Below, one piece after another: positions 2,767 through 38,366 of a stretch of DNA of 64,000 bases (positions are counted from its first letter, which is position 1; every line of letters begins with the position of its first letter). The notes below the pieces were generated by a model. That model was not told where the DNA came from and did not search any database. It saw nothing but the letters and a program-made list of their open reading frames with translations. The DNA is from an uncultured Faecalicatena sp. (GTDB lineage Bacteria; Bacillota; Clostridia; Lachnospirales; Lachnospiraceae). The stretch is taken from contig CAOKHZ010000019.1 of assembly GCA_948468385.1 (NCBI GenBank), positions 1 through 64,000 of the forward strand, in the 5' to 3' direction. The position numbers were made by a program, and so were the translations under genes.

Positions 2767-5582
2767 TGAGGATTTATGATTTGAGAACGGAGTATAGGAA
2801 GAATCCTATCGGAATTGACGCGGTGAATCCAAGATTCTCATGGAAAATTCAATCCAATCTGCAAAATGTCATTCAGACGGCTTATCAGATCCAGGCTTTT
2901 GAGGATGAGAGGGCAGAGAGGCTTTTGTGGGATTCAGGGAAAGTAGAAAGCGATGCTTCTCAGCGTGTTTTATGGGCGGGGCCAGAACTTGGTTCCACCC
3001 GGCGGGTTTATTGGAAGGTGACAGTATATACGAGAGAGGAAATGGCGGAAAGCGAACTGTCGTTTTTCGAAATGGGACTTTTGAAGGATGGGGACTGGAA
3101 GTGCCAGTGGATTGAACCAGAGGACGAAGTTGACCCGGCGGTTTTTAAGCCGTCACCTTATCTACGAAAAGTGTTTACGATAAAAAAGGCGGTGGTGAAG
3201 GCGAGGATTTATATGACTGCCCATGGCTTGTATGAATTCTGGATAAACGGACGGTCGGGGAGCGAGGATAAATTTAAGCCGGGCTTTACCAGTTATTATC
3301 ATCGTGTTCAATATCAGGTGTATGATATTACTGATTTTTTACGAGAAGGGGAAAATGTCTGGGCGGTTGCGCTTGGCGACGGCTGGTGGCGAGGACTCGT
3401 CGGCGGTCTTAGTATCAATGACTTTGGATTTAAACTTCATTTTTTCGGGCAGATTATTTTGACGTATACGGATGGGAGTGAGGAAATCATTGTCACGGAC
3501 GAGTCTTTTAAAACTTCGGAAGGTGCCATAAAAAGAGCGGATATGAAATGTGGCGAGGTATATGACGCGACGGCGGAGCCGGAAGGTTGGAAATTTCCTT
3601 CCTTTGACGATACCTTGTGGAAAAACGTGCATTTGGCGGAGGATGAGCATTGCAGAAAGGATATTTTGATTCCATCCCGAAGCGTGGCGGTGCGGGAAAA
3701 AGAATGTTTTGAGGCCAGAGAATTTACGGATGCAGTTGGAAACCGCGTGTTGGATTTTGGCCAGAATGTTGCCGGTTATGTAAAGATGAGATTGCGGGGG
3801 CTGAAAAAAGGGCAGCAGGTCATGCTCGTGCACGGGGAGGATATAAAGGACGGCATTTTTAGTATAGAGAATCACAAGTTGGGCTCGATGCCGCATGAAG
3901 ATTTGTTTCAGCAGATTGTCTATGTTGCCAAAGGGGACGAGGTGGAGACATATTGTCCGATATTTGCCGTATTTGGATTCCGGTATGTGTTGGTCAAGGG
4001 GTACGATGGAGAAATTGAACCCGGAGATTTTACTGCCGTTGCCGTATATTCGAATCTTGATGAAACCGGGTACTATTCGTGCTCAAATGAGTTGATTAAT
4101 AAACTGGTAAGTAATAGCAAGTGGAGCATGAAAGGAAATTATTTGGATGTGCCAACGGATTGCCCGACGAGGGAGAGAAGTCCCTGGACGGGAGATTCCC
4201 AGGTGTTTTGTCGGACGGCTTGTGATTTTATGAATGTGTATCCGTTTTTTGAAAAATGGATGTTGGATTATAATTGTGAGCAGCTTGTAAATGGAAAATT
4301 ATGCAATACCGTTCCGTCTACGAACACGCTTCAAAATAAAAAAGAATTAGAGCGCAAAATGGAGGAAGTCAGAAAGGGGAAAGGAGTGCTTTCTGAAACG
4401 GAAGAAATGGCACTTTCTGTACAGTTGGGAAATATGGAGATTGGAGGTCCGATGGACGGTGCCGCTGGGTGGTCTGACGCGGCAGTTATCAATCCGTTTA
4501 CCATGTATCTTTGTTATGGGGATAGGAAAATTCTTGAAAACCAATATGAATCGGCGAAAAAACATGTGGAATACATGTTCTCCAAGGCGAGACAGAAAAA
4601 TGAATTCAGAAAAGACGCTTTAGAATACCAAACTTATACGGATGGGGAATTGGATGCGGATTGTATTTGGGATACGGAGTTTCATTGGGGAGAATGGTTT
4701 GAAGCAGACGTAGGTGCAGACGGCGAAGTGGCACGCATGCAGGACAAATTTACAAAACCGGATCCGGAAGTGCCAACTGCTTTTTTGTGCTACAGTACGA
4801 GGCTTCTCTCTAAAATGGCCGAGATACTGGGAAAAAGAGAGGATGCATCCTATTATTTGGGCAAGAGCAACAAGGTAAAAAAGATGTTTGAAAAATACAT
4901 GATTGGAAAGGATGGGGTGATTAAGGCTGGTCGCCAGGCTCCGCATGTCAGGGCAATTGCTTTTGACTTGTGCGGTGAAGAGAAGAAAGGACTTGTTCTT
5001 ACATATCTGGCAGAATTGGTGAGGAAAAATGAGTATCACTTGAATACGGGATTTCTTTCCACGCCATTTATCTTAAGTGTTCTGGCGGACGGAGGATATG
5101 TGGAAGAAGCTTATAAGCTTCTTGAGCAGGAATCAAGTCCATCCTGGCTTTATAATGTCAAAAAGGGTGCTACGACGATTTTGGAACAGTGGACGGGATT
5201 GGATGAACATGCGTATTCTTACAATCATTATAGTTACGGCGCGGTATGCGACTTCTTGTTTACCAGGGTGGCAGGAATACAGCCGGTTTTGGAGGAACCG
5301 GGGTATAAGAAGATAAAGATTCAACCTTGCGTCGGGGGAACATTGGAATATAGCAGGGCGGATTATGAAAGCATTTATGGAAAGATTCATTCCGAGTGGG
5401 TGAAATTAGGAGAGGAAGTGAGGTATTCTTTTGAAATTCCACCAAACACGAGCGCGGTTCTCTCGCTGGGCACCAGCGAGGAGAAAATGGAAAGTTTAAA
5501 GAAGAGATATCCATCGGCGGCATATGAAGATGGTTATGCCACATTTACCGTGGGAAGCGGAACGTATGAAATGGTTCTGTGA
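2766..5582 (+). CDS. alpha-L-rhamnosidase, GH78 family
   Basis: 938 residues, the usual size of a full GH78 enzyme, which removes terminal alpha-L-rhamnose from plant glycans or flavonoids. An N-terminal beta-sandwich region with the family opening (NPRFSWKI) is followed by a carbohydrate-binding domain and an (alpha/alpha)6 catalytic barrel. The conserved stretch DVPTDCPTRERSPWTGD near residues 461-477 carries the acidic catalytic pair region. ATTILEQW and a C-terminal beta domain follow near 790-938. No signal peptide is present, so the enzyme is probably cytoplasmic and acts on imported oligosaccharides. It is translationally coupled to the transporter upstream and followed by a terminator. 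Confidence 0.93.
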   Translation: MRIYDLRTEYRKNPIGIDAVNPRFSWKIQSNLQNVIQTAYQIQAFEDERAERLLWDSGKVESDASQRVLWAGPELGSTRRVYWKVTVYTREEMAESELSFFEMGLLKDGDWKCQWIEPEDEVDPAVFKPSPYLRKVFTIKKAVVKARIYMTAHGLYEFWINGRSGSEDKFKPGFTSYYHRVQYQVYDITDFLREGENVWAVALGDGWWRGLVGGLSINDFGFKLHFFGQIILTYTDGSEEIIVTDESFKTSEGAIKRADMKCGEVYDATAEPEGWKFPSFDDTLWKNVHLAEDEHCRKDILIPSRSVAVREKECFEAREFTDAVGNRVLDFGQNVAGYVKMRLRGLKKGQQVMLVHGEDIKDGIFSIENHKLGSMPHEDLFQQIVYVAKGDEVETYCPIFAVFGFRYVLVKGYDGEIEPGDFTAVAVYSNLDETGYYSCSNELINKLVSNSKWSMKGNYLDVPTDCPTRERSPWTGDSQVFCRTACDFMNVYPFFEKWMLDYNCEQLVNGKLCNTVPSTNTLQNKKELERKMEEVRKGKGVLSETEEMALSVQLGNMEIGGPMDGAAGWSDAAVINPFTMYLCYGDRKILENQYESAKKHVEYMFSKARQKNEFRKDALEYQTYTDGELDADCIWDTEFHWGEWFEADVGADGEVARMQDKFTKPDPEVPTAFLCYSTRLLSKMAEILGKREDASYYLGKSNKVKKMFEKYMIGKDGVIKAGRQAPHVRAIAFDLCGEEKKGLVLTYLAELVRKNEYHLNTGFLSTPFILSVLADGGYVEEAYKLLEQESSPSWLYNVKKGATTILEQWTGLDEHAYSYNHYSYGAVCDFLFTRVAGIQPVLEEPGYKKIKIQPCVGGTLEYSRADYESIYGKIHSEWVKLGEEVRYSFEIPPNTSAVLSLGTSEEKMESLKKRYPSAAYEDGYATFTVGSGTYEMVL

Positions 5583-9499: not shown

Positions 9500-9583
9500 C
9501 ACACTTTGTCCGACAGTTCCTAAGTTTGCAATGAGGCGCGCGAATGTAAGGTGCGTAAAAATGTGAGGTGTGAAAAGGCGGCC

Positions 9584-10087
9584 ATGGAAATACAATCGTT
9601 ATCAAGTACATATGAGGTAAGCCTTTTGGGTGATTTAGATATCCCGGTGGTGTTGGAGCTGTGCGGTGGAAATCCTCGGTATTACCGATATTGTCCGCCT
9701 CCCGTCAGCGAGGAGGGCATACGCCGGGACATGCGGGCCATTCCTGACGGGAAAGAGCCGAAAGACAAATATTATCTTGGCTTCTGGGACGGCGGGGCTT
9801 TGATTGCGGTCTTGGACTTAATTCTGGCGTTCCCTGATGAGAGGACGGCGTTTATCGGATTTTTCATGATGCGGGCCGACATGCAGGGAAAGGGAATCGG
9901 ATCCAAGCTTGTATCTGAAATTTGCGCGGCACTAAAAGAAAATTTTTCGTATGTCAGATTGGGTTATGTACAAGGAAATGAGCAGCCGAAGCATTTCTGG
10001 CTGAAAAATGGATTTGTGCCGACCGGGACGGTCACAAAGACGGAAAGCTATGACATCGTCGTCATGCAAAGAGAGTTGTATACGTAA
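9584..10087 (+). CDS. GNAT family N-acetyltransferase
   Basis: 167 residues from ATG 9584 (AAGGCGG upstream; a GTG at 9551 is also possible). The acetyl-CoA binding loop is visible as RADMQGKGIGSKLVSEI near residues 106-122, and the C-terminal strand/helix as WLKNGFVPTG. The substrate is unknown. The last codons (Tyr-Thr-stop) are supplied by the left end of the MITE-like repeat at 10079, so the natural C-terminus may once have been different. Confidence 0.8.
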   Translation: MEIQSLSSTYEVSLLGDLDIPVVLELCGGNPRYYRYCPPPVSEEGIRRDMRAIPDGKEPKDKYYLGFWDGGALIAVLDLILAFPDERTAFIGFFMMRADMQGKGIGSKLVSEICAALKENFSYVRLGYVQGNEQPKHFWLKNGFVPTGTVTKTESYDIVVMQRELYT

Positions 10088-10117
10088 GCGGCAGATTTAA
10101 CTGCCGCTCAGTTTATC
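10079..10117. repeat. left-end fragment of the MITE-like repeat, also a bidirectional terminator
   Basis: TATACGTAAGCGGCAG then CTGCCGCTCAGTTTAT, matching the first hairpin of the full copies at 21110, 29619 and 36803. The convergent GNAT and TetR genes both end inside this hairpin. Confidence 0.7.
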
Positions 10118-10788
10118 ATTGGTCATCATCGCGTCCTTTCGCCGTTCCATAATCAGGTCGGAAAGCTGTTTTTGCACGTCAGAATCCCGCACGCCGACCG
10201 CAAAAAGCGTGGCATTTATCATGTTCTGTGACAAGTGGTCGGGGTCTTGGGACAGGGACGCACCGATATCGGAAAATCCGGCCCGTATCATGGCGCACTC
10301 GATGGCGGCATAGATTTTGGCCTCGATGGCGGTATCTGGGTCGGAGGGCGCGAGATCCTTTTGGCGTGCTTGTACATGGCCAAGATATTTTTCAAAAAAA
10401 TAATGTTCCATGGCTCCTAACAAATCCACCTGGTCGGTGTGGATTTTCAGCAATACGTCAAAGATGTCCCGTGTTTCATCCGAGAATTTGCCGTGGCGTT
10501 GCTTGAGTGCCTGGACGCGTTTTTCATCCTGCAGGCTGTAAATGGAAATCTTGTCCGTCTTGTAGATGGCATCAAGACTATCCTGAAAGGATTCGATATA
10601 ATTGGAAAATAACATTTCTACAATCTCGTATTTGTCTTTGTAATGGGCATAAAAGGTATTTCTGCTGACGAGTGCCTCGTCCAAGATGTCCTTGACGGTA
10701 ATCTGGTCAAAGCTTTTTTCTTGCAGAGCGTAAGAAAGGCACTGACAATGGCCTTGTCGGTTCTTTTATATTGTAGGCTTTCTTTCAT
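10097..10788 (-). pseudogene. TetR/AcrR family regulator broken by a frameshift
   Basis: The intact reading would start at ATG 10788 (GGAGGATTCCC just upstream) as MKESLQYKRTDKAIVSAF and continue into the helix-turn-helix DILDEALVSRNTFYAHYKDK. The two halves are in different frames. Restoring one base near 10722-10732 gives a continuous LTLLQEKSFDQITVKDI. The C-terminal ligand domain runs to 10097. Either a one-base deletion has inactivated it or there is a sequencing error. It is flanked by a left-end and a right-end fragment of the dispersed repeat. The divergent neighbour is the GH43 gene. Confidence 0.75.
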
Positions 10789-10806
10789 GGGAATCCTCCG
10801 TTTTGC

Positions 10807-10842
10807 CGCAATGCTCACGGCAGATTTATCGGCCATGAGTAT
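10807..10842. repeat. right-end fragment of the MITE-like repeat
   Basis: GCTCACGGCAGATTTATC and GGCCATGAGTATAG match the third hairpin and right terminus of the full copies (ACTCACGGCAGATAAAATC ... GAGTATAA at 36893-36930). It lies just upstream of the broken tetR. Confidence 0.55.
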
Positions 10843-11136
10843 AGAAGGTCGATTGTTTCGTGTAATGTGTTTCTACAACGGTTCATTTTGCTACTGTCTG
10901 AGACTTTCACGATAAATAATCTGATAATTTGACGTTAATAGTCAATTACATGACAATTATAACATAATGTGCAGCCGCTGACTATCTGAATTTTTTTATC
11001 TCTTTCTTTTTTTATGTTTTTTAGTAAGATATTTTATAGAAAGTAACGAGAGGTTTCGAGTGCCAGCTTTATGGGCAAGGCGAATTCGGATCTCGTACCA
11101 CGCGGAAAGTGAAAAAGAAAGAGGAGGAAGATCAGT
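10843..11136. promoter_or_regulatory. intergenic control region between tetR pseudogene and GH43 gene
   Basis: No gene. An inverted repeat TTGAC(7 bp)GTCAA at 10929-10945 could be a TetR-type operator. TATAAC at 10958-10963 may be a -10 box for the rightward gene. GAGGAGG at about 11122 is the RBS of the GH43 gene. Confidence 0.4.
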
Positions 11137-12735
11137 ATGAATCCATTATTACCATTACAAGAGTACATGCCGGACGGAGAACCCCATGTGTTCGGGGACA
11201 GAATTTATTTGTTCGGGTCGCATGACGTGGCGGGCGGAACAAAGTACTGCGCGGCGGAAGATTACGTGGTCTGGTCGGCACCGGTTACCGACATGACGGA
11301 TTGGCGGTGCGAGGGGCAGATTTATAGGGCGGAACAAGATCCGCAGTATGATGCGAAAACGGGCGGGGAACTTTATGCCCCCGACGTGGTGCAGGGAAAC
11401 GACGGGAAATATTATCTTTACTATAATTTCGTGGCAAGTGGCACGGATGGCTTTCATGGCGGCTTTCATGTGGCCGTGTGTGATGAGCCTGCCGGAAAGT
11501 ACGAGTATCTTGGCATCGTGAGAAATCCGGACGGAAGCATTTGCAATACATATTTAATGTCTGACCCGGCCGTTATAAACGACGATGGCGTGATTCGCCT
11601 TTATGCGGGATGGTCTTTGTCCATGGTGGCTCAGGCGGCGCATCGTCAAGATGAGAAATATGCGGATGCACGAGCCAAACATCAGCAAGAAGCTAAAGCG
11701 GCAGAAGGGGCGGGCGAGGCAAGCCAGATGACGGATGCCAAGGACGGCGCGAGGCAACTGCCGCCGCCATGGCAGATGCCGAAAGAGGGGCTGTATCAGG
11801 TTTACCAGATGCTGTTTGGAAAGACGAAGGAAGAGGTTGACGTGCTGGAATATCCTTTGATGGGTGCAAACACGTATACTCTGGCGGACGACATGCTGAC
11901 CGTCACCTCGAAGGCCAAGCGGATTGTGGAGGGGCAGTTTGCCACGCCGCCGGAGAGCAGCTTTTTCGGACACGCGTTTTACGAGGCATCTTCCATTCGT
12001 AAAATCAACGGCAAATATTATTTTATCTATTCCTCGGAAAATAGCAATGAGCTTTGTTACGCCACGAGTGATTTCCCGGATAAGGACTTTGTTTATGGCG
12101 GAACGATTATTTCCAACGGGGACGTGGGATATGAGGGACGTAAAGATGAAGACCGGCTTAACATGACCGCCAACGACCATGGCAGTATCGAGTGTGTGAA
12201 TGGGGAATGGTATGTTTTTCATCATCGGCAGACGAACCGCTCCACGTTCAGCCGTCAGGCATGTGCGGAAAAAGTCGTGATAAAAGAGGATGGCAGCATC
12301 GCGCAGGTGGAGTGCACGAGCGAGGGACCAAACAGAGGACATTTACAGACGGAGGGCGAGTATCCGGCGGCCGTTTGCTGCAACTTGACGAACGGGCATA
12401 TGCCGCATTGTACCAATACCATGATTGAGGATGACATTCCCTATATCACGCAGAAAGAGGATGAGGTTTACATTGCCAATATCAAAGAAGGAACGCTGTT
12501 TGCCTATAAGTATTTCGATTTTCATGGGGAAACGAGCCTGGGACTTGTGACAAGAGGAAGCGGAACGGGTGTATTTGAAGTGTCATTGGCCGGACGGAAA
12601 GTGGGCGATATCGCGGTGGAGCCGGATACGGAATGGAATGTGTACGAGTGTACATTTTCGGCGGAAATGACAGCGGACTTGACACTTGCATATAAAGGAA
12701 CGGGGGAAAGGGAGGTGTTGAAATTACAGTTTTGA
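11137..12735 (+). CDS. glycoside hydrolase family 43 (xylosidase/arabinofuranosidase-like)
   Basis: 532 residues, no signal peptide, so probably cytoplasmic. The five-bladed beta-propeller opening (PDGEPHVFGDRIYLFGSHD) holds the catalytic base region. ELYAPDVVQGNDGKYYLYYN and SSIRKINGKYYFIYSSE carry the other two GH43 acidic positions. About residues 440-532 form a beta-sandwich like a CBM6-type module (LGLVTRGSGTGVFEVSLAG). A charged insert (about residues 175-215) is unusual for the family. It probably cleaves xylo- or arabinoxylo-oligosaccharides delivered by the xylanase and transporter genes that follow at 13.5 and 15.6 kb. Confidence 0.87.
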   Translation: MNPLLPLQEYMPDGEPHVFGDRIYLFGSHDVAGGTKYCAAEDYVVWSAPVTDMTDWRCEGQIYRAEQDPQYDAKTGGELYAPDVVQGNDGKYYLYYNFVASGTDGFHGGFHVAVCDEPAGKYEYLGIVRNPDGSICNTYLMSDPAVINDDGVIRLYAGWSLSMVAQAAHRQDEKYADARAKHQQEAKAAEGAGEASQMTDAKDGARQLPPPWQMPKEGLYQVYQMLFGKTKEEVDVLEYPLMGANTYTLADDMLTVTSKAKRIVEGQFATPPESSFFGHAFYEASSIRKINGKYYFIYSSENSNELCYATSDFPDKDFVYGGTIISNGDVGYEGRKDEDRLNMTANDHGSIECVNGEWYVFHHRQTNRSTFSRQACAEKVVIKEDGSIAQVECTSEGPNRGHLQTEGEYPAAVCCNLTNGHMPHCTNTMIEDDIPYITQKEDEVYIANIKEGTLFAYKYFDFHGETSLGLVTRGSGTGVFEVSLAGRKVGDIAVEPDTEWNVYECTFSAEMTADLTLAYKGTGEREVLKLQF

Positions 12736-20742: not shown

Positions 20743-21117
20743 ATGAATTTCGAGGATGAGAAGGATTACATCATGCGTATTATCAAGGAGATGGTCAGCG
20801 TGTTATTTTCCGTATTGTTGGGCAGGAAATTTGTCTCGGTTGAGTTGGAACTGGCAAACAAGTACGAGGTTTCCGGGAAGGATTTGCGTGATTTGCTGGC
20901 CATGGCTGACAAGGGGGACATCAATGAGGCGGAGAATCTTTTGCTGGACGGCATGGACTATGCAAATCAGGACGAGGTGGCTGCAGCAGCCTTGTTTTAT
21001 CAGTATTTGAGCGAGAAAGAGGAGGCGTTTTTGCTGCAAAACAATTATTCGAAGGAAGAGGTGCTCGAGGGCATGAAGTGGGTGATGCAAAAGGCAGGGT
21101 ATGCGGATTTATACTGA
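20743..21117 (+). CDS. DUF6483 family protein
   Basis: 124 residues, all-helical, no TM or signal, with TTGGAGGG upstream. It begins MNFEDEKDYIMRIIKEMV and has the block LLLDGMDYANQDEVAAAALF. It is recognised as the Lachnospiraceae DUF6483 type from memory. Function unknown. Its last codons (ending Leu-Tyr-stop) overlap the left end of the MITE-like repeat that begins at 21110. Confidence 0.75.
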   Translation: MNFEDEKDYIMRIIKEMVSVLFSVLLGRKFVSVELELANKYEVSGKDLRDLLAMADKGDINEAENLLLDGMDYANQDEVAAAALFYQYLSEKEEAFLLQNNYSKEEVLEGMKWVMQKAGYADLY

Positions 21118-21210
21118 GCGGCGAAAATAACTGCCGCTTAGTATAAAATTATGCGCACAGCCGCATAAAGAAATATGCCGCTTCGCGGCTGCGGCTTTAG
21201 CGAGTATAAA
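21110..21210. repeat. MITE-like repeat, copy A (internally shortened)
   Basis: It begins TATACTGAGCGGC, with the hairpin completed by GCCGCTTAGTATA. Then comes the shared core CACAGCCGCATA ... TATGCCGC ... GCGGCTGCGGC, and it ends CGAGTATAAA. The left half of the third hairpin is missing compared with copies at 29619 and 36803. Confidence 0.75.
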
Positions 21211-23436: not shown

Positions 23437-23480
23437 TTTTGTCTGTTTGTGAAGCACCCTGAATTTCAAGAAAATCCCTG

Positions 23481-23529
23481 TTTCCAAACCTCGTTTTATA
23501 TGTTAGAATGTAAAAAATGGAAACGAGGT
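23481..23529 (+). promoter_or_regulatory. promoter with inverted repeat flanking the -10
   Basis: TTTCCA at 23481-23486 and TAGAAT at 23504-23509 (17 bp). ACCTCGTTT at 23488-23496 is the inverted partner of AAACGAGGT at 23521-23529, which includes the RBS region of the following gene. It could be an operator. Confidence 0.5.
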
Positions 23530-23536
23530 GTCGGGT

Positions 23537-25237
23537 ATGTTGAAAAGACCAATAGGGATTGGCATTGAGAATTATAAAGACATGATTGATGGGACTTATT
23601 ATTATGTGGACAAAACCTTGATGATGAAAGAACTGTTGGATTATGGCACGAAGGTGGAGCTTTTTACCCGACCGCGCCGTTTTGGCAAGACGTTAACGCT
23701 CAGCATGATTCGGACTTTTTTTGAAAGAGAGAGCACGGCGGATGGGGCGGCAGTGGACAATCGTCGTTATTTTGAAGGGACGAAGATTATGGGAACCGGA
23801 GACAAGTACCTGAGTCATATGGGAAAGTATCCGGTTATTTCCATGTCGTTAAAGTCTGCCAGGCAGCCGGATTACCATATGGCTTACGAGAGCCTGGTGG
23901 ATGAGATTATCAAGGAATATGTTCGGCATAATTATGTTTTGGATTCAGATTGTCTAACGGAGGCGTATCGTGAGAAATATGATGCCATTATGAATCGGCG
24001 GGCGGAGCCGATTGCTTATGCGAAGGCGATGGCCTTTTTATCGGAGTGCCTGAAAAAGTATCATGGAACCAATGCAATCATTTTGCTTGATGAATATGAC
24101 GTGCCGTTAGAAAATGCATTTTTCAAGGGATATTACGAGCAGATGGTGGACTTTGTGCGTTCTTTGTTCGAGTCGGCCTTGAAAACTAACGATTGCTTAC
24201 AATTTGCGGTTGTCACGGGGTGTTTGCGTATTAGCCGGGAAAGCATTTTTACCGGTTTGAATAACTTGAAAATTAATTCCATTTTGGATAATAGGTTTGG
24301 GGAGTATTTTGGATTTACGCAGGCGGAAGTCGAAGACATGTTGATATTTTATGATTTGCGTGACAAAATTGGTGAGTCAAAGGAATGGTATAATGGATAT
24401 TTGTTTGGGGAAACGCAAGTGTACAATCCTTGGAGTATTATTAATTATGTAAGCACGGCCATTACGAATACTGTGGCATTGCCTCGCCCATATTGGTCAA
24501 ATACCTCTTCCAACGCCATCATTCGGGAACTGGTGGAAAAGGCGGACGAGGGCGTAAAGGGGGAAATTGAGGAGTTGATTTCCGGTGGAACGATTGAAAA
24601 GCCGGTTCATGAGGATGTCACTTATGGGGAGATTTACGAGAATCAGGATAACTTGTGGAATTTCTTGTTTTTTACCGGATATTTAAGGGCGGTGTCGCAG
24701 CGTCTTGAGGAGGAAACCATTTATTTGACCATGGCGGTTCCGAACAAGGAAGTGAATTATATTTATAAAAACACGATTCGGAAATGGTTTGAGCGGCAGG
24801 TTCGGGCAATGGATTTTTCCGACATGCATCGGGGGTTGATGAAGCTAGATGCCGACGGTGTTCAGGATGTTATTAGACGGCAATTGAGAAAGACGATTAG
24901 TTACCATGACGGGGGCGAAGCGTTTTATCATGGCTTTTTGCTGGGGGTGTTAAGTGGCATTCAGGGATACCATATTCGTTCCAATCGTGAAAGTGGAAAT
25001 GGAAGGCCGGACATTTTGTTGATTCCGTTGGATGAGATGCAGCCGGTCATCATTATTGAAATCAAGCAGGCGGAAAAGTTTAATCAGATGGAAGATGGCT
25101 GTGAAAAAGCATTGGAACAAATAAAACGTCAGGATTATGCGGCGGGAGTTTTGGACGAGGGATACGAAAACATTTTAGAGTATGGGATTTGTTTTTGTAA
25201 GAAGAGTTGCGTGGTGAAAGGGCGGAAATGTCAATGA
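23537..25237 (+). CDS. AAA-ATPase-like / PD-(D/E)XK nuclease-like protein (DUF1703 type)
   Basis: 566 residues from ATG 23537. The N-terminal AAA-ATPase_like domain starts PIGIGIENYKDMIDG, and its P-loop equivalent reads RPRRFGKTLTLSMI (residues about 44-57), as usual in this family. Walker B is AIILLDEYDVPLENA. The C-terminal domain has RPDILLIP and VIIIEIKQAEKF, the D...ExK core of the PD-(D/E)XK fold (PDDEXK_9). Many paralogues occur in gut Firmicutes and Bacteroidetes; their role is unproven, possibly mobile-element or defence linked. It is followed by a convergent terminator. Confidence 0.88.
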   Translation: MLKRPIGIGIENYKDMIDGTYYYVDKTLMMKELLDYGTKVELFTRPRRFGKTLTLSMIRTFFERESTADGAAVDNRRYFEGTKIMGTGDKYLSHMGKYPVISMSLKSARQPDYHMAYESLVDEIIKEYVRHNYVLDSDCLTEAYREKYDAIMNRRAEPIAYAKAMAFLSECLKKYHGTNAIILLDEYDVPLENAFFKGYYEQMVDFVRSLFESALKTNDCLQFAVVTGCLRISRESIFTGLNNLKINSILDNRFGEYFGFTQAEVEDMLIFYDLRDKIGESKEWYNGYLFGETQVYNPWSIINYVSTAITNTVALPRPYWSNTSSNAIIRELVEKADEGVKGEIEELISGGTIEKPVHEDVTYGEIYENQDNLWNFLFFTGYLRAVSQRLEEETIYLTMAVPNKEVNYIYKNTIRKWFERQVRAMDFSDMHRGLMKLDADGVQDVIRRQLRKTISYHDGGEAFYHGFLLGVLSGIQGYHIRSNRESGNGRPDILLIPLDEMQPVIIIEIKQAEKFNQMEDGCEKALEQIKRQDYAAGVLDEGYENILEYGICFCKKSCVVKGRKCQ

Positions 25238-28893: not shown

Positions 28894-28924
28894 TTAAAAA
28901 TGTCAGTTTTACCGGGTGATTATT

Positions 28925-29050
28925 TAACCTCATCAGGGAAGTCCCTCGCTGACTTCCTTGTTTCAGTGGGAGTATAAGCTTCCACTGAAATGCCGCGAAG
29001 CGGCAATGAGGTTATGAGCAAGTAGCAAAGCGGATTGCGAATATCCGCTT
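28925..29050 (+). ncRNA. multi-hairpin intergenic element with four-way-junction potential
   Basis: TAACCTCAT (28925-28933) pairs with ATGAGGTTA (29006-29014) and encloses three perfect hairpins: GGAAGTC/GACTTCC (28937-28957), TTTCAGTGG/CCACTGAAA (28961-28990) and TGCCGC-GAA-GCGGCA (28991-29005). A separate hairpin AAGCGGAT/ATCCGCTT follows at 29028-29050, just before the next gene. Confidence 0.5.
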
Positions 29051-29075
29051 GACAATGAAAAAGGAGGCGTTTTGT

Positions 29076-29618
29076 ATGCAGTACAAATGCAGGGTCGAGG
29101 TTATCGATAAAAAGGTGTTTCCAGAGTATCAGTCGGCTTACTTGGCTGACCCCGAGAGCGGCACGTGCCCGTTTTACCAGGTGGGGGACGTGACGGTGTT
29201 TGAACGTTATGGCGGCGAGGACACGTTCTGGACGGCGGCGAAGGGGGCACATTGCGCCGAGGCGTGGGATTGCATCAGCCGTTATATTTATACGGCGTTG
29301 CAGGGCGGTTCCATCATGCGCGGCTGGACAAATGACGAGCATATGATGATTGCTTGTTGTAATGACGGCACGCGCCCCGTGATTTTTAAAATTGAGCGGC
29401 AGGATTACAAGGTCGTGAAGATTGAGGGGATGGGCTGTGAAAAATGTGCGGGGAAGGTCGAGGATGCCTTGTCGGCGGTGAAAAATGTCGACCGTGTGGC
29501 GGTTCGCTTGGACAAGAAGTGGGCCGAGGTATTTTGTGACAGAGCAAACGCGCCGGATGACGGGGCGTTAATCAAGGCGGTAGAAGCGGCGGGATACGAG
29601 GCCGTGGGGATTGATTAA
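29076..29618 (+). CDS. TIGR04076 family protein fused to a heavy-metal-associated (HMA) domain
   Basis: 180 residues from ATG 29076 (AAAAAGGAGG upstream). Residues 1-110 match the TIGR04076 type (YKCRVEVIDKKVF, GTCPFYQVGD, AEAWDCISRYIYTAL), small proteins of unknown function with conserved cysteines. Residues about 115-180 are a ferredoxin-like HMA domain with KIEGMGCEKCAGKVEDAL, i.e. the CxxC metal site, and ending AVEAAGYEAVG. The fusion suggests handling of Cu or another soft metal by the N-terminal domain. It stands alone, with repeat elements on both sides. Confidence 0.8.
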   Translation: MQYKCRVEVIDKKVFPEYQSAYLADPESGTCPFYQVGDVTVFERYGGEDTFWTAAKGAHCAEAWDCISRYIYTALQGGSIMRGWTNDEHMMIACCNDGTRPVIFKIERQDYKVVKIEGMGCEKCAGKVEDALSAVKNVDRVAVRLDKKWAEVFCDRANAPDDGALIKAVEAAGYEAVGID

Positions 29619-29751
29619 TATGTAAGCGGCAGACTTAACTGCAGCTTACGTATAATATGATGCGAACAGCCGCATAAGGAACTGTGCCGCTTTGCGGCTG
29701 CGACTGGTGCCAATGGTCACGACCGATAAAATCTGTCGTGAGTATAAGTTG
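29619..29751. repeat. MITE-like repeat, copy B (full length)
   Basis: It begins TATGTAAGCGGCAG directly after the stop codon of the previous gene. The core is ACAGCCGCATAAGG ... GCCGCTTTGCGGCTGCG, the third hairpin ACGACCGATAAAATCTGTCG, and the end GAGTATAAGTTG. It is closely similar to copy C at 36803 over its whole length. Confidence 0.8.
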
Positions 29752-31392: not shown

Positions 31393-31465
31393 GGCTATAA
31401 CCTATAGGTGCATACTGATAAACAAAACGAGACTTCTTTGGAGGTCTCGTTTTGTTTATACTATG
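31393..31465. terminator. terminator-like repeat, copy 1 of 2
   Basis: ATAAACAAAACGAGAC (31418-31433) and GTCTCGTTTTGTTTAT (31444-31459) form a perfect 16-bp stem. Flanks GGCTATAACCTA and TATACTAT are shared with the copy at 38295. Confidence 0.75.
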
Positions 31466-36511: not shown

Positions 36512-36802
36512 AAAATTCAACCTCCTTCTGTCAAAAGTTTTCCAACTGTGTGGTTGTGCGAATTTTGCGAATGTATGAGTTGGGTGGAACGCTTAATGAA
36601 GGTGACACTTGGCCTTGTCATCATATGGTTTCTAAATGTGGTATTAGTATATCATAATGCATCATGCTTGTAAAGCATATACAAATATTTAATATAAGTA
36701 TTTGCTATTTATCAGCGTGCATATTATACTATTCTCATGGAAAATGAAAAGCAAGTCATACGACCGGCTTGAGAAGGATAGGATTCACTGTCAACCCGGT
36801 TG
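36512..36802. promoter_or_regulatory. intergenic region with promoter candidate toward the MATE gene
   Basis: No gene. TTGCTA at 36702-36707 and TATACT at 36725-36730 (17 bp) point rightwards. The AT-rich stretch 36640-36730 has short inverted motifs (GCATCATGC, GCTTGTAAAGC). The LysR promoter should also lie here. Confidence 0.4.
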
Positions 36803-36934
36803 TATACTGAGCGGCAGATTTGACTGCCGTTCAGTATAATATGATGCGCACAGCCGCATAGGGAAATATGCCGCTTTGCGGCTGCGGCTGGCGCAATACT
36901 CACGGCAGATAAAATCTGTCGCGAGTATAAATTG
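36803..36934. repeat. MITE-like repeat, copy C (full length, reference)
   Basis: Hairpin 1 TATACTGAGCGGCAG/CTGCCGTTCAGTATA (36803-36838); hairpin 2 CAGCCGCA ... TGCGGCTG enclosing GCCGC-TTT-GCGGC; hairpin 3 ACTCACGGCAGAT/ATCTGTCGCGAGT; end GAGTATAAATTG. Left end TATACTGAGCGGCAG and reverse complement of right end TATACTCGCGACAG give imperfect terminal inverted repeats. Confidence 0.8.
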
Positions 36935-36955
36935 TAATGGAAGGGAGACTATAGG

Positions 36956-38302
36956 ATGGAAAAAGAAAATAAGATGGGAACGGGTGCGATTCCTTCATTA
37001 CTGCTAAAGACGGCAATCCCGTTGATGCTTTCGTTGCTTGCAAATAATTTGTATAACATGGTGGATAGCATTTTTATCTCGCATATGAGCGAGGATGCCC
37101 TGACCGCGCTTTCCATGGCATCCCCGGTGCAGCAGCTGATGGCGGCGCTTGGCTGCGGAATCGCGGTGGGACTGAATGCGGCGGTTTCCAAGGCATTGGG
37201 GGAGAAAAACCCGGAGAAGGCAAAAAATACGGCATCCGCGGCAATTTTTCTGGGAATCTGCGCGTGGGTAATCATTATAGTGTGCTGCATTCTGTTTGTA
37301 CGGCCGTATTTCCAATGGCAGGCGGGGCAGAACCAAAGAATCGCGGAGTACGGCGTCTCCTATCTTGAAATATGCATGCTGTTTTCCTTGGGACAAATGA
37401 TGCAATGGGTGTTTGACCGCCTGATTATTGCCAATGCAAAATCCATGTTATTTTTGATAACGCTTGGCACGGCGGCGGTCGTGAACCTGATTTTAGACCC
37501 TATTTTCATCTTCGGACTCCTGGGATTTGCACCGATGGGAACCGCGGGAGCGGCATTGGCGACCGTGATAGGACAAAGCTGCGGAGCCGTTCTGGGCGTG
37601 ATTTTAAATATCCGGTACAATAAGGAAATTCCAATCCGGTTTACCATAAAGCCGGATGGACGCATGATACTTGACATATTGCGGGTGGGGATACCGACTT
37701 CCATCATGCAAGGGCTGGTATCTGTCATGGGAATCGTAATGAACACGATTTTATACGGTTTTTCCTCAACGGCGGTCGCGGTATATGGAATTTGCGCGAG
37801 AGTCCAAAATCTCGCCGGGATTCCCGTGCATGGCATTGACAATGGGCTGATTCCAATCGTGGCATACAATTATGGTGCCAGGAAGAGAAAACGGATTGAC
37901 GAAAGCATCCGGTGGGCATTTATTTACGCGATGACATTGACCGGAATTGTAATCGTGCTGTTGGAGATGTTCCCGGCTCCGCTGCTTGCCTTGTTTGACG
38001 CGTCGGAAACGATGTTGGCCATCGGGGTTCCTGCCATCCGGATTTTGGCGGTTGGCTGGCTGCTTTCCGTGTTCGGCTTTGTAATCGGTACTACGTTTCA
38101 GGCACTGGGAAACGGAGGTTACAGTATGTACGTGACGGTCATGCGGCAGGTGGCGCTGCCGATTGGATTTGCCATGCTTTTCTCGAGGACGGGGAATCTC
38201 CGGATGATTTGGGTGGCTTTTTTAATGGCGGAAATATTGACGATACCACTGGTGGTTTTCTTGTTTGGAAAAACGAAGAGAATGGTTTTGAACCGGCTAT
38301 AA
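36956..38302 (+). CDS. MATE family efflux transporter
   Basis: 448 residues with AAGGGAGAC upstream. There are about 12 TM segments in two similar halves. Characteristic pieces are MLSLLANNLYNMVDSIFISH and GCGIAVGLNAAVSKALGEKN. This is the DinF/MepA-like branch, which exports drugs or dyes by cation antiport. Its transcript ends at the terminator-like repeat at 38295. A second MATE gene is at 40843. Confidence 0.9.
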   Translation: MEKENKMGTGAIPSLLLKTAIPLMLSLLANNLYNMVDSIFISHMSEDALTALSMASPVQQLMAALGCGIAVGLNAAVSKALGEKNPEKAKNTASAAIFLGICAWVIIIVCCILFVRPYFQWQAGQNQRIAEYGVSYLEICMLFSLGQMMQWVFDRLIIANAKSMLFLITLGTAAVVNLILDPIFIFGLLGFAPMGTAGAALATVIGQSCGAVLGVILNIRYNKEIPIRFTIKPDGRMILDILRVGIPTSIMQGLVSVMGIVMNTILYGFSSTAVAVYGICARVQNLAGIPVHGIDNGLIPIVAYNYGARKRKRIDESIRWAFIYAMTLTGIVIVLLEMFPAPLLALFDASETMLAIGVPAIRILAVGWLLSVFGFVIGTTFQALGNGGYSMYVTVMRQVALPIGFAMLFSRTGNLRMIWVAFLMAEILTIPLVVFLFGKTKRMVLNRL

Positions 38303-38366
38303 CCTAAAAGTATAAACTGATAAACAAAACGAGACTTCTGCACGGGTCTCGTTTTGTTTATACTAT
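38295..38366. terminator. terminator-like repeat, copy 2 of 2
   Basis: Stem ATAAACAAAACGAGAC (38320-38335) / GTCTCGTTTTGTTTAT (38346-38361), identical in its arms to the copy at 31418. The flanks GGCTATAACCTA and TATACTAT are also shared. Its left end overlaps the last codons of the MATE gene. Confidence 0.75.

Follow-up and report, generated by a model that had tools for sequence, protein, structure and literature searches.

A dispersed family of TA-inserting, hairpin-ended elements, very probably MITEs, in a group of Lachnospiraceae

Introduction

Bacterial MITEs of the TA class have been characterized by their size, terminal inverted repeats (TIR), TA ends, target-site duplication (TSD) and stable folding (Table 1 of PMC2229807). 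ERIC/IRU elements of the enterobacteria measure 127 bp and possess 5'-TA termini, TIR, TSD and stable stem-loops, and no IS partner is reported for ERIC in the same source (PMC2229807). Correia/NEMIS elements of Neisseria have TA ends, TSD and paired transcripts and occur in two size classes of about 107 and 155 bp, with termini that are 24-bp inverted repeats of each other. RUP of the pneumococcus (107 bp, about 108-110 copies) has TIR, inserts at TA and has ends in common with IS630-Spn1 in the same genome, and BOX, also of the pneumococcus, is composed of modular hairpins that also occur as lone modules, with TIR and TSD; the terminal repeats of both BOX and RUP pair mutually (PMC3049150). 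The palindromic elements of Rickettsia (RPE) are found in-frame within protein genes, with 44 integrations in R. conorii (PMC10969869).

Here we describe, from an uncultured Faecalicatena sp. (Lachnospiraceae) and other gut bacteria, a family of dispersed repeats of about 125 bases, which resembles ERIC/IRU in size, 5'-TA termini, TIR, TSD, stable stem-loops and the missing IS partner, Correia/NEMIS in TA ends, TSD, a second size class and the potential for paired transcripts, RUP in TIR, insertion at TA and copy number, and BOX in its modular hairpins and lone modules, TIR and TSD. The likeness to ERIC/IRU is one of description and concerns other bacteria, and the ends of the present element each form a hairpin of their own. 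This self-folding of the two ends (H1 and H3 below) likewise sets it apart from Correia/NEMIS, BOX and RUP, and no partner comparable to IS630-Spn1 was found in the searches described below. An in-frame position as known from RPE was observed in one clear case, a single GH3 beta-glucosidase in two species.

Results

Copies of the element in the window

The window is the whole stretch of DNA that was analysed, i.e., positions 1 to 64,000 of contig CAOKHZ010000019.1 (assembly GCA_948468385.1). The genome it belongs to (G000) comprises 4.25 Mb in 62 contigs and is 94% complete; the genome of a sister species, G008, has stretches matching the window at 85-94% identity. A preliminary description based on the letters of the window had reported three copies (A, B and C) of a MITE-like element with three hairpins and imperfect TIR. 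When the sequence was re-read, all three copies were found at the positions given, and two partial copies beyond that list were located:

36803..36929, plus strand: copy C, full-length, TA + 123 bp + TA (from its borders; clean empty site ggttgTAaattg in G008)
36803..36838, plus strand: left terminal hairpin H1 of copy C, 15 bp stem, 6 nt loop (from the fold)
36845..36895, plus strand: central hairpin H2 of copy C with an inner GCCGCTTTGCGGC hairpin (from the fold; pairs counted in 61 copies)
36896..36928, plus strand: right terminal hairpin H3 of copy C (from the fold)
29619..29746, plus strand: copy B, full-length, left end decayed (from sequence matches and borders)
21110..21208, plus strand: copy A, short form, H1 and H2 with H3 shrunk to GCGAGTATA (from its borders; clean empty site gcggattTAaatg in G008)
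10079..10118, plus strand: partial copy, left hairpin alone (newly located)
10804..10846, plus strand: partial copy, right hairpin alone, upstream of a tetR-like gene on the minus strand (newly located)

Copy C is bordered by TA at 36803-36804 and 36928-36929, with the element (TACTG...GAGTA) at 36805-36927 in between, and copy A by TA at 21110-21111 and 21207-21208 (element 21112-21206). The decayed left end of copy B begins at about 29619, and its right TA is located at 29745-29746. Copy C folds into the three hairpins H1, H2 and H3 as proposed, and the imperfect inverted repeats were recovered as well, the left end reading TATACTGAGCGGCAGATTT and the right end, read inwards, TTATACTCGCGACAGATTTT. 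The left end had further been suggested to provide neighbouring genes with stop codons. This holds for two ORFs, as copy A gives a TGA stop to ORF 20743-21117 and the partial copy at 10079-10118 a new stop to ORF 9551-10087 (TATACTGA and TATACGTAA, respectively), but not for the ORF beside copy B, which stops at 29618, just outside the element.

The succession of left hairpin, tetR-like gene and right hairpin at 10079-10846 was considered as a captured gene, which was rejected: in G008, a tetR-like stretch of 75% identity is located beside the same neighbour (ORF 11137-12735), and the gene is thus an ordinary neighbour.

Other repeats are present in the window and elsewhere in these genomes. 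Another dispersed repeat, measuring about 134 bp and located at 28920-29055, has matches in G000 (C45, C38, C46, C13, C10, C20), G001 and G008, a 72-base stretch occurs at both 31393-31464 and 38295-38366 with 86% identity, and the stretch 23479-25220, which matches at 65-90% at several places in G000, G001, G006 and G008, apparently represents a repeated protein family. At locus L219, a short repeat at 3212-3305 (G000:C38:32711-32804) has about 26 matches of 82-88% among the G008 matches listed, and another short repeat at 2994-3092 has five matches in G001 among the matches listed.

Anatomy and variant forms

A profile HMM scan of the collected loci yielded 125 full-length matches, 95 of which remained after repeats of the same place had been dropped. 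On alignment, the ends of the element proved to be sharp, with TATACT on the left and AGTATA on the right. In the main subfamily, both ends, when read inwards, carry TATACT followed by GAGC or CAC and then GGCAGATTT, and are therefore imperfect inverted repeats of each other. What the preliminary description had missed is that each end possesses a partner arm of its own, with which it forms a palindrome (H1 and H3, with the third hairpin, H2, located between them), and that either end thus folds back on itself instead of pairing with the other. The fold of copy C into three hairpins reached -74.6 kcal/mol, compared to -39.65 (sd 3.64) for 200 dinucleotide shuffles, none of which was as good.

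In a short form, to which 13 of the 21 partial copies listed belong, including copy A, H2 runs straight into a GAGTATA-like end. Several of these copies break off at the same point although they occupy different sites, suggesting that this form moves as well. Truncated copies were also found to retain H1 or H3 alone. At three loci of one assembly (L062, L078 and L096), H3 is replaced by about 107 bp of other sequence, 61 bp of which are seen in L096, where the contig ends. These loci were considered as a longer, perhaps autonomous form and rejected as such, since the common stretch soon ends and no transposase occurs among the ORFs listed for L062; they represent a chimeric longer form.

Family size and distribution

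The possibility that only these few copies exist was refuted by searching the whole genome G000, in which blastn with copy C returned 52 matches (second-strand matches of one palindromic arm included) and a covariance model built from 14 full copies returned 77. Using this model, with at most 150 candidates scored per genome and palindromic second-strand matches included in the counts, the family was detected in 7 of the 12 genomes of the genus (G000 77, G001 126, G002 72, G008 57, G007 51, G006 14, G005 1), with zero matches in the other five. Among 61 genomes searched with copy C, six matched, every one within the genus, and none of the 49 genomes of the order outside it did so (25 of the family, 24 of the order). 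When the family was sampled with one genome per genus (150 and 200 genomes) and searched with exact end patterns, G000 alone was matched apart from one chance match, to the left-end pattern in G118 outside the genus, where the palindrome is missing. As these patterns cover some subfamilies only and miss, e.g., ...GACAGAT, it is chiefly the search with copy C that supports absence outside the genus.

An exact core pattern matched 89 stretches in named genomes, and the 80 listed come from 21 assemblies, mostly of Lachnospiraceae, some of which are identical to genomes with G numbers (e.g., CATLEQ and G001, judging by contig numbers and matches). Their titles refer to Lachnospiraceae, Petralouisia muris, uncultured Roseburia, Eubacterium plexicaudatum ASF492, which NCBI places in the Eubacteriaceae, and once to Clostridiaceae. 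Several of these carrier assemblies are presumably of mouse origin. Zero matches to the element were obtained in viral contigs (searched with two exact patterns), plasmids and phages. Identical copies occupy different sites in the assemblies CAMWXE (three copies) and CAMWXA (two copies), as do 99% identical copies in CAMWTP, CAOKWI and JAIEEY, indicating that movement has been recent in these five; the best pair of copies in G000 is 91% identical.

Insertion at TA and target preference

Nine sites were compared with sister genomes, four in the window, three in G000:C8 and two in G000:C38, and clean two-sided empty sites were obtained at two of them. At copy C, the G008 sequence ggttgTAaattg corresponds to ggttg-TA-[element]-TA-aattg in G000, and at copy A, the G008 sequence gcggattTAaatg corresponds to gcggatt-TA-[element]-TA-aatgg. 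At both sites the element was thus inserted at TA with the TA duplicated, providing the empty sites with target duplication that the preliminary description had proposed to look for. The left hairpin at 10079 was inserted into the TA of a stop codon, TAA, which is uninterrupted in G008; the border there is clean on the left only, and the right side is rearranged. At C38:34157, the element is absent from G008 and the junction lacks a clean TA, and C38:31155 is filled in both genomes. At C8:99652, all three genomes carry the element or decayed remains of it: G001 retains a 35-base hairpin in which the left end is fused to the right-end GGCAGAT motif, and G008 retains a decayed left end. No counterpart with both flanks was present among the matches listed for copy B and for two of the C8 copies.

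A T precedes the left TA in 56 of 81 copies and an A follows the right TA in 57 of 78, and the position three bases out is A or T in 72 of 81 copies on the left and 69 of 78 on the right, the rest of the 95 copies being excluded for altered ends or short flanks. Accordingly, the target is symmetrical (T-TA-A). The TA empty sites with duplication and the symmetrical target place the element among the TA-class MITEs, like ERIC, Correia and RUP. It is shorter than 200 bp, contains no transposase, occurs in many dispersed copies and displays imperfect TIR and TA duplication, as do bacterial MITEs. The earlier MITE reading thereby gains support from a genome-wide family with defined ends, two TA-duplicating empty sites and imperfect inverted repeats, and we consider it very likely that the element is a non-autonomous MITE, about 123 bp in length, which duplicates the TA at which it inserts.

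Search for a mobilising enzyme

A duplicated TA is the product of IS630/Tc1/mariner transposases, and for ISY100, 34 of 39 insertions displayed the normal TA duplication (PMC2170065). Our transposase search covered two families, DDE_3 (PF13358) and Y1_Tnp. Neither gave a match in the whole genome G000, so that, for these two families, the preliminary statement that no transposase is in the window was borne out. DDE_3 had zero matches in G001 and G008 as well, though these genomes, like G000, are copy-rich. At E <=0.001, DDE_3 matches occurred in 5 of the 12 genus genomes, in three of them over the cut-off, and in 7 of 15 other carrier genomes, which were reached via element loci and may overlap the genus set.

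When 23 of the 25 DDE_3 loci were compared with six forms of the element end (two loci below the cut-off, L204 and L205, were left out), none agreed above shuffle level, the best agreement being 13-15 of 19 bases versus 12-15 in shuffled sequence. The visible ends of the DDE_3 elements differ from those of the family (e.g., TAGTACAGC..., TAGTACTCTATCCGG..., TATAGTAAACGAC...), and the loci compared held no IS630/Tc1 gene with the same ends, as would mark an IS630-derived MITE. Three genomes with identical or near-identical copies, G237 (CAMWXE), G239 (CAMWTP) and G242 (CAOKWI), gave no DDE_3 match, and two, G238 (CAMWXA) and G249 (JAIEEY), gave one match each, with ends not matching the element. 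These five are mostly metagenome assemblies that may be incomplete, and the absence of an enzyme from incomplete assemblies is weak evidence. The transposase with the same ends that the preliminary description had hoped for did not turn up among the DDE_3 loci or in the Y1_Tnp search, and so the mobiliser may have been lost, have diverged or be of another kind.

As a separate observation, locus L206 in G007 contains an IS630-type transposase ORF close to an inverted repeat of 41 bases, and the locus ends in GC-rich sequence resembling a hairpin.

Two other types of enzyme were considered. The two terminal hairpins in inverted arrangement, the hairpin-only derivatives and an orientation bias (see below) are reminiscent of REP/REPIN-like elements, on whose single-stranded hairpin ends a Y1 (RAYT) transposase would act. 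The corresponding transposase was not found in G000, where no Y1_Tnp match resulted from the 8 candidates scored, and matches elsewhere were partial (one in G001, three in G008). The target is, in addition, symmetrical around a duplicated TA, which to our knowledge is not a Y1 feature, and we regard a REP/REPIN-like origin as highly unlikely. Serine-recombinase-type transposases leave the same dinucleotide at both borders, and an enzyme of this type with TA as crossover dinucleotide, instead of a DDE enzyme, would agree with most of the carrier genomes searched having no DDE_3 match. We hold this to be improbable, as the loose symmetrical TA target more closely resembles that of IS630/Tc1 elements, such as ISY100 (PMC2170065).

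Genomic surroundings

Among the 68 copies with enough flank (of 95), 59 are located outside ORFs of at least 300 nt compared to 40 of 237 control TA sites, as determined with a crude ORF caller. In 82 copies with sufficient flanking sequence, the 250 nt beyond each end were scanned for a start codon accompanied by a Shine-Dalgarno-like motif, which was present at the right end of 48 and at the left end of 22; such a gene start is found at the right end only in 38, at the left end only in 12, at both in 10 and at neither in 22 copies, and the bias of right-only over left-only (38:12) has a two-sided binomial p = 0.0003. Between tandem genes, 28 copies are in sense and 12 in antisense orientation (p = 0.017), a few orthologous copies being counted twice in these orientation counts. 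The bias may stem from the replication strand, insertion preference or selection; it would not be predicted from neutral placement of a selfish element. At copies B and C, a terminator scan gave no terminator-like site, and a promoter scan gave two promoter-like sites (0.8 expected), both upstream of copy C and outside the element.

At L014:1499-1626 and its orthologue L036:2692-2819, in two species, the element lies in the open frame of a GH3 beta-glucosidase. In this protein the C-terminal domain comes first and the N-terminal domain last, and the element is located between the Fn3-like and the N-terminal domain, where it would add about 42 residues in both species. The same filter, applied to the 95 copies, identified two further copies flanked on either side by 60 or more codons of open frame (L123:3028-3155 and L022:1472-1597).

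Maintenance of the hairpins

In 61 distinct copies, 25 of 47 base pairs have changed on both sides (500 shuffles: 11.3, sd 2.0), and the proportion of cells that pair is 91.2%, compared to 87.8 (sd 0.2) when shuffled and at most 47.7% when slid. Covariation this strong is normally a mark of selection on RNA. Together with the very stable fold and the placement near start codons with a sense bias, it would fit a cis-acting RNA, i.e., a leader or processing element copied to many genes and kept by selection on its fold. RNA stems should then favour G·U. Counted in element copies alone, G·U versus A·C cells amount to 36:45 in H1, 48:32 in H2 and 35:24 in H3, so that G·U prevails in H2 and H3 taken whole but not in H1, and nowhere after two G·U-rich pairs are left aside (36:45, 17:32 and 20:23, respectively). 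The G·U surplus of H2 and H3 thus rests on these two pairs, and a clear preference for G·U over A·C is not seen. Furthermore, no Rfam 15 family reached its gathering score in the window, and a scan of 36700-37050 with a relaxed E-value brought nothing near such a score; many copies are truncated and some are antisense. The clean TA empty sites, finally, are those of a mobile element, though a later function would stay compatible with them. Taken as the explanation of the family, a cis-acting RNA appears quite unlikely to us.

Template switching is known as a source of RNA hairpins, which it also maintains, and as a cause of loop inversion (PMC8794818); the mechanism as such is therefore not new. 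For H1, 19 of 562 pairs within three differences fit better by at least 3 bases when one partner is inverted, and the H1 of L123 and L099 match exactly after inversion; for H3, inverted matches occurred in 2 of 1058 pairs. The orthologues L249 (G007) and L229 (G002) have 18 differences in 970 flanking bases and five in the 36 bases of H1. One reverse-complement patch, in which bases 1-25 are rewritten from 12-36, converts the G007 H1 into the G002 form; in the direction from L229 to L249, one step fails. Only 1 of 200,000 random five-base H1 mutants could be reached by one patch. Such a flip was seen in one of six orthologous pairs, the other five displaying point changes or deletions. As G·U is not clearly favoured and the five changes of one orthologous pair are accounted for by one switch, part of the apparent compensation may come from DNA copying and not from selection on RNA.

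Discussion

Comparison of the copies would be consistent with the following course of events. An enzyme provided in trans would cut the ends of the element and join them to TA targets in the manner of IS630/Tc1/mariner transposases. The palindromic termini H1 and H3 could extrude as hairpins, at which template switching at quasi-palindromes would rewrite stem bases and invert loops, as suggested by one orthologous pair and by loops occurring in both orientations; this may help to keep the hairpins paired without selection on RNA. Copies may be reduced to a single hairpin when the GGCAGAT motif of one end recombines with that of the other, as the remnant at one site indicates. Surviving copies are mostly intergenic. 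Many precede a start codon by a short distance in the sense orientation and would form stable mRNA hairpins there, which makes an effect plausible.

A further-reaching reading is that the self-flipping hairpin termini produce the covariation largely by DNA copying and that the element would move without an IS630-type enzyme, therefore requiring an undescribed TA-specific mobiliser, which maybe reads the extruded hairpins. This combination we regard as possible, if rather doubtful.

Whichever enzyme is involved, the element displays the features of a TA-class MITE. In a literature search, titles and the openings of abstracts contained no recognisable description of such a family in Lachnospiraceae, and in the main text of a 2024 review on prokaryotic MITEs a search for the terms Clostridi- and Lachnospir- found neither (PMC10969869). 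The class is therefore already known, and this family is new to the literature searched. It adds a TA-inserting MITE family to a group of Lachnospiraceae for which that search showed none.

With many copies per genome, close sister genomes and, in some assemblies, identical copies, the family offers a natural test of template switching versus RNA selection as the source of covariation, a question that bears on how functional RNAs are inferred, and as a mobile family it allows template switching to be counted. The many copies located beside start codons could, in addition, cause gene expression to differ from one related strain to another.
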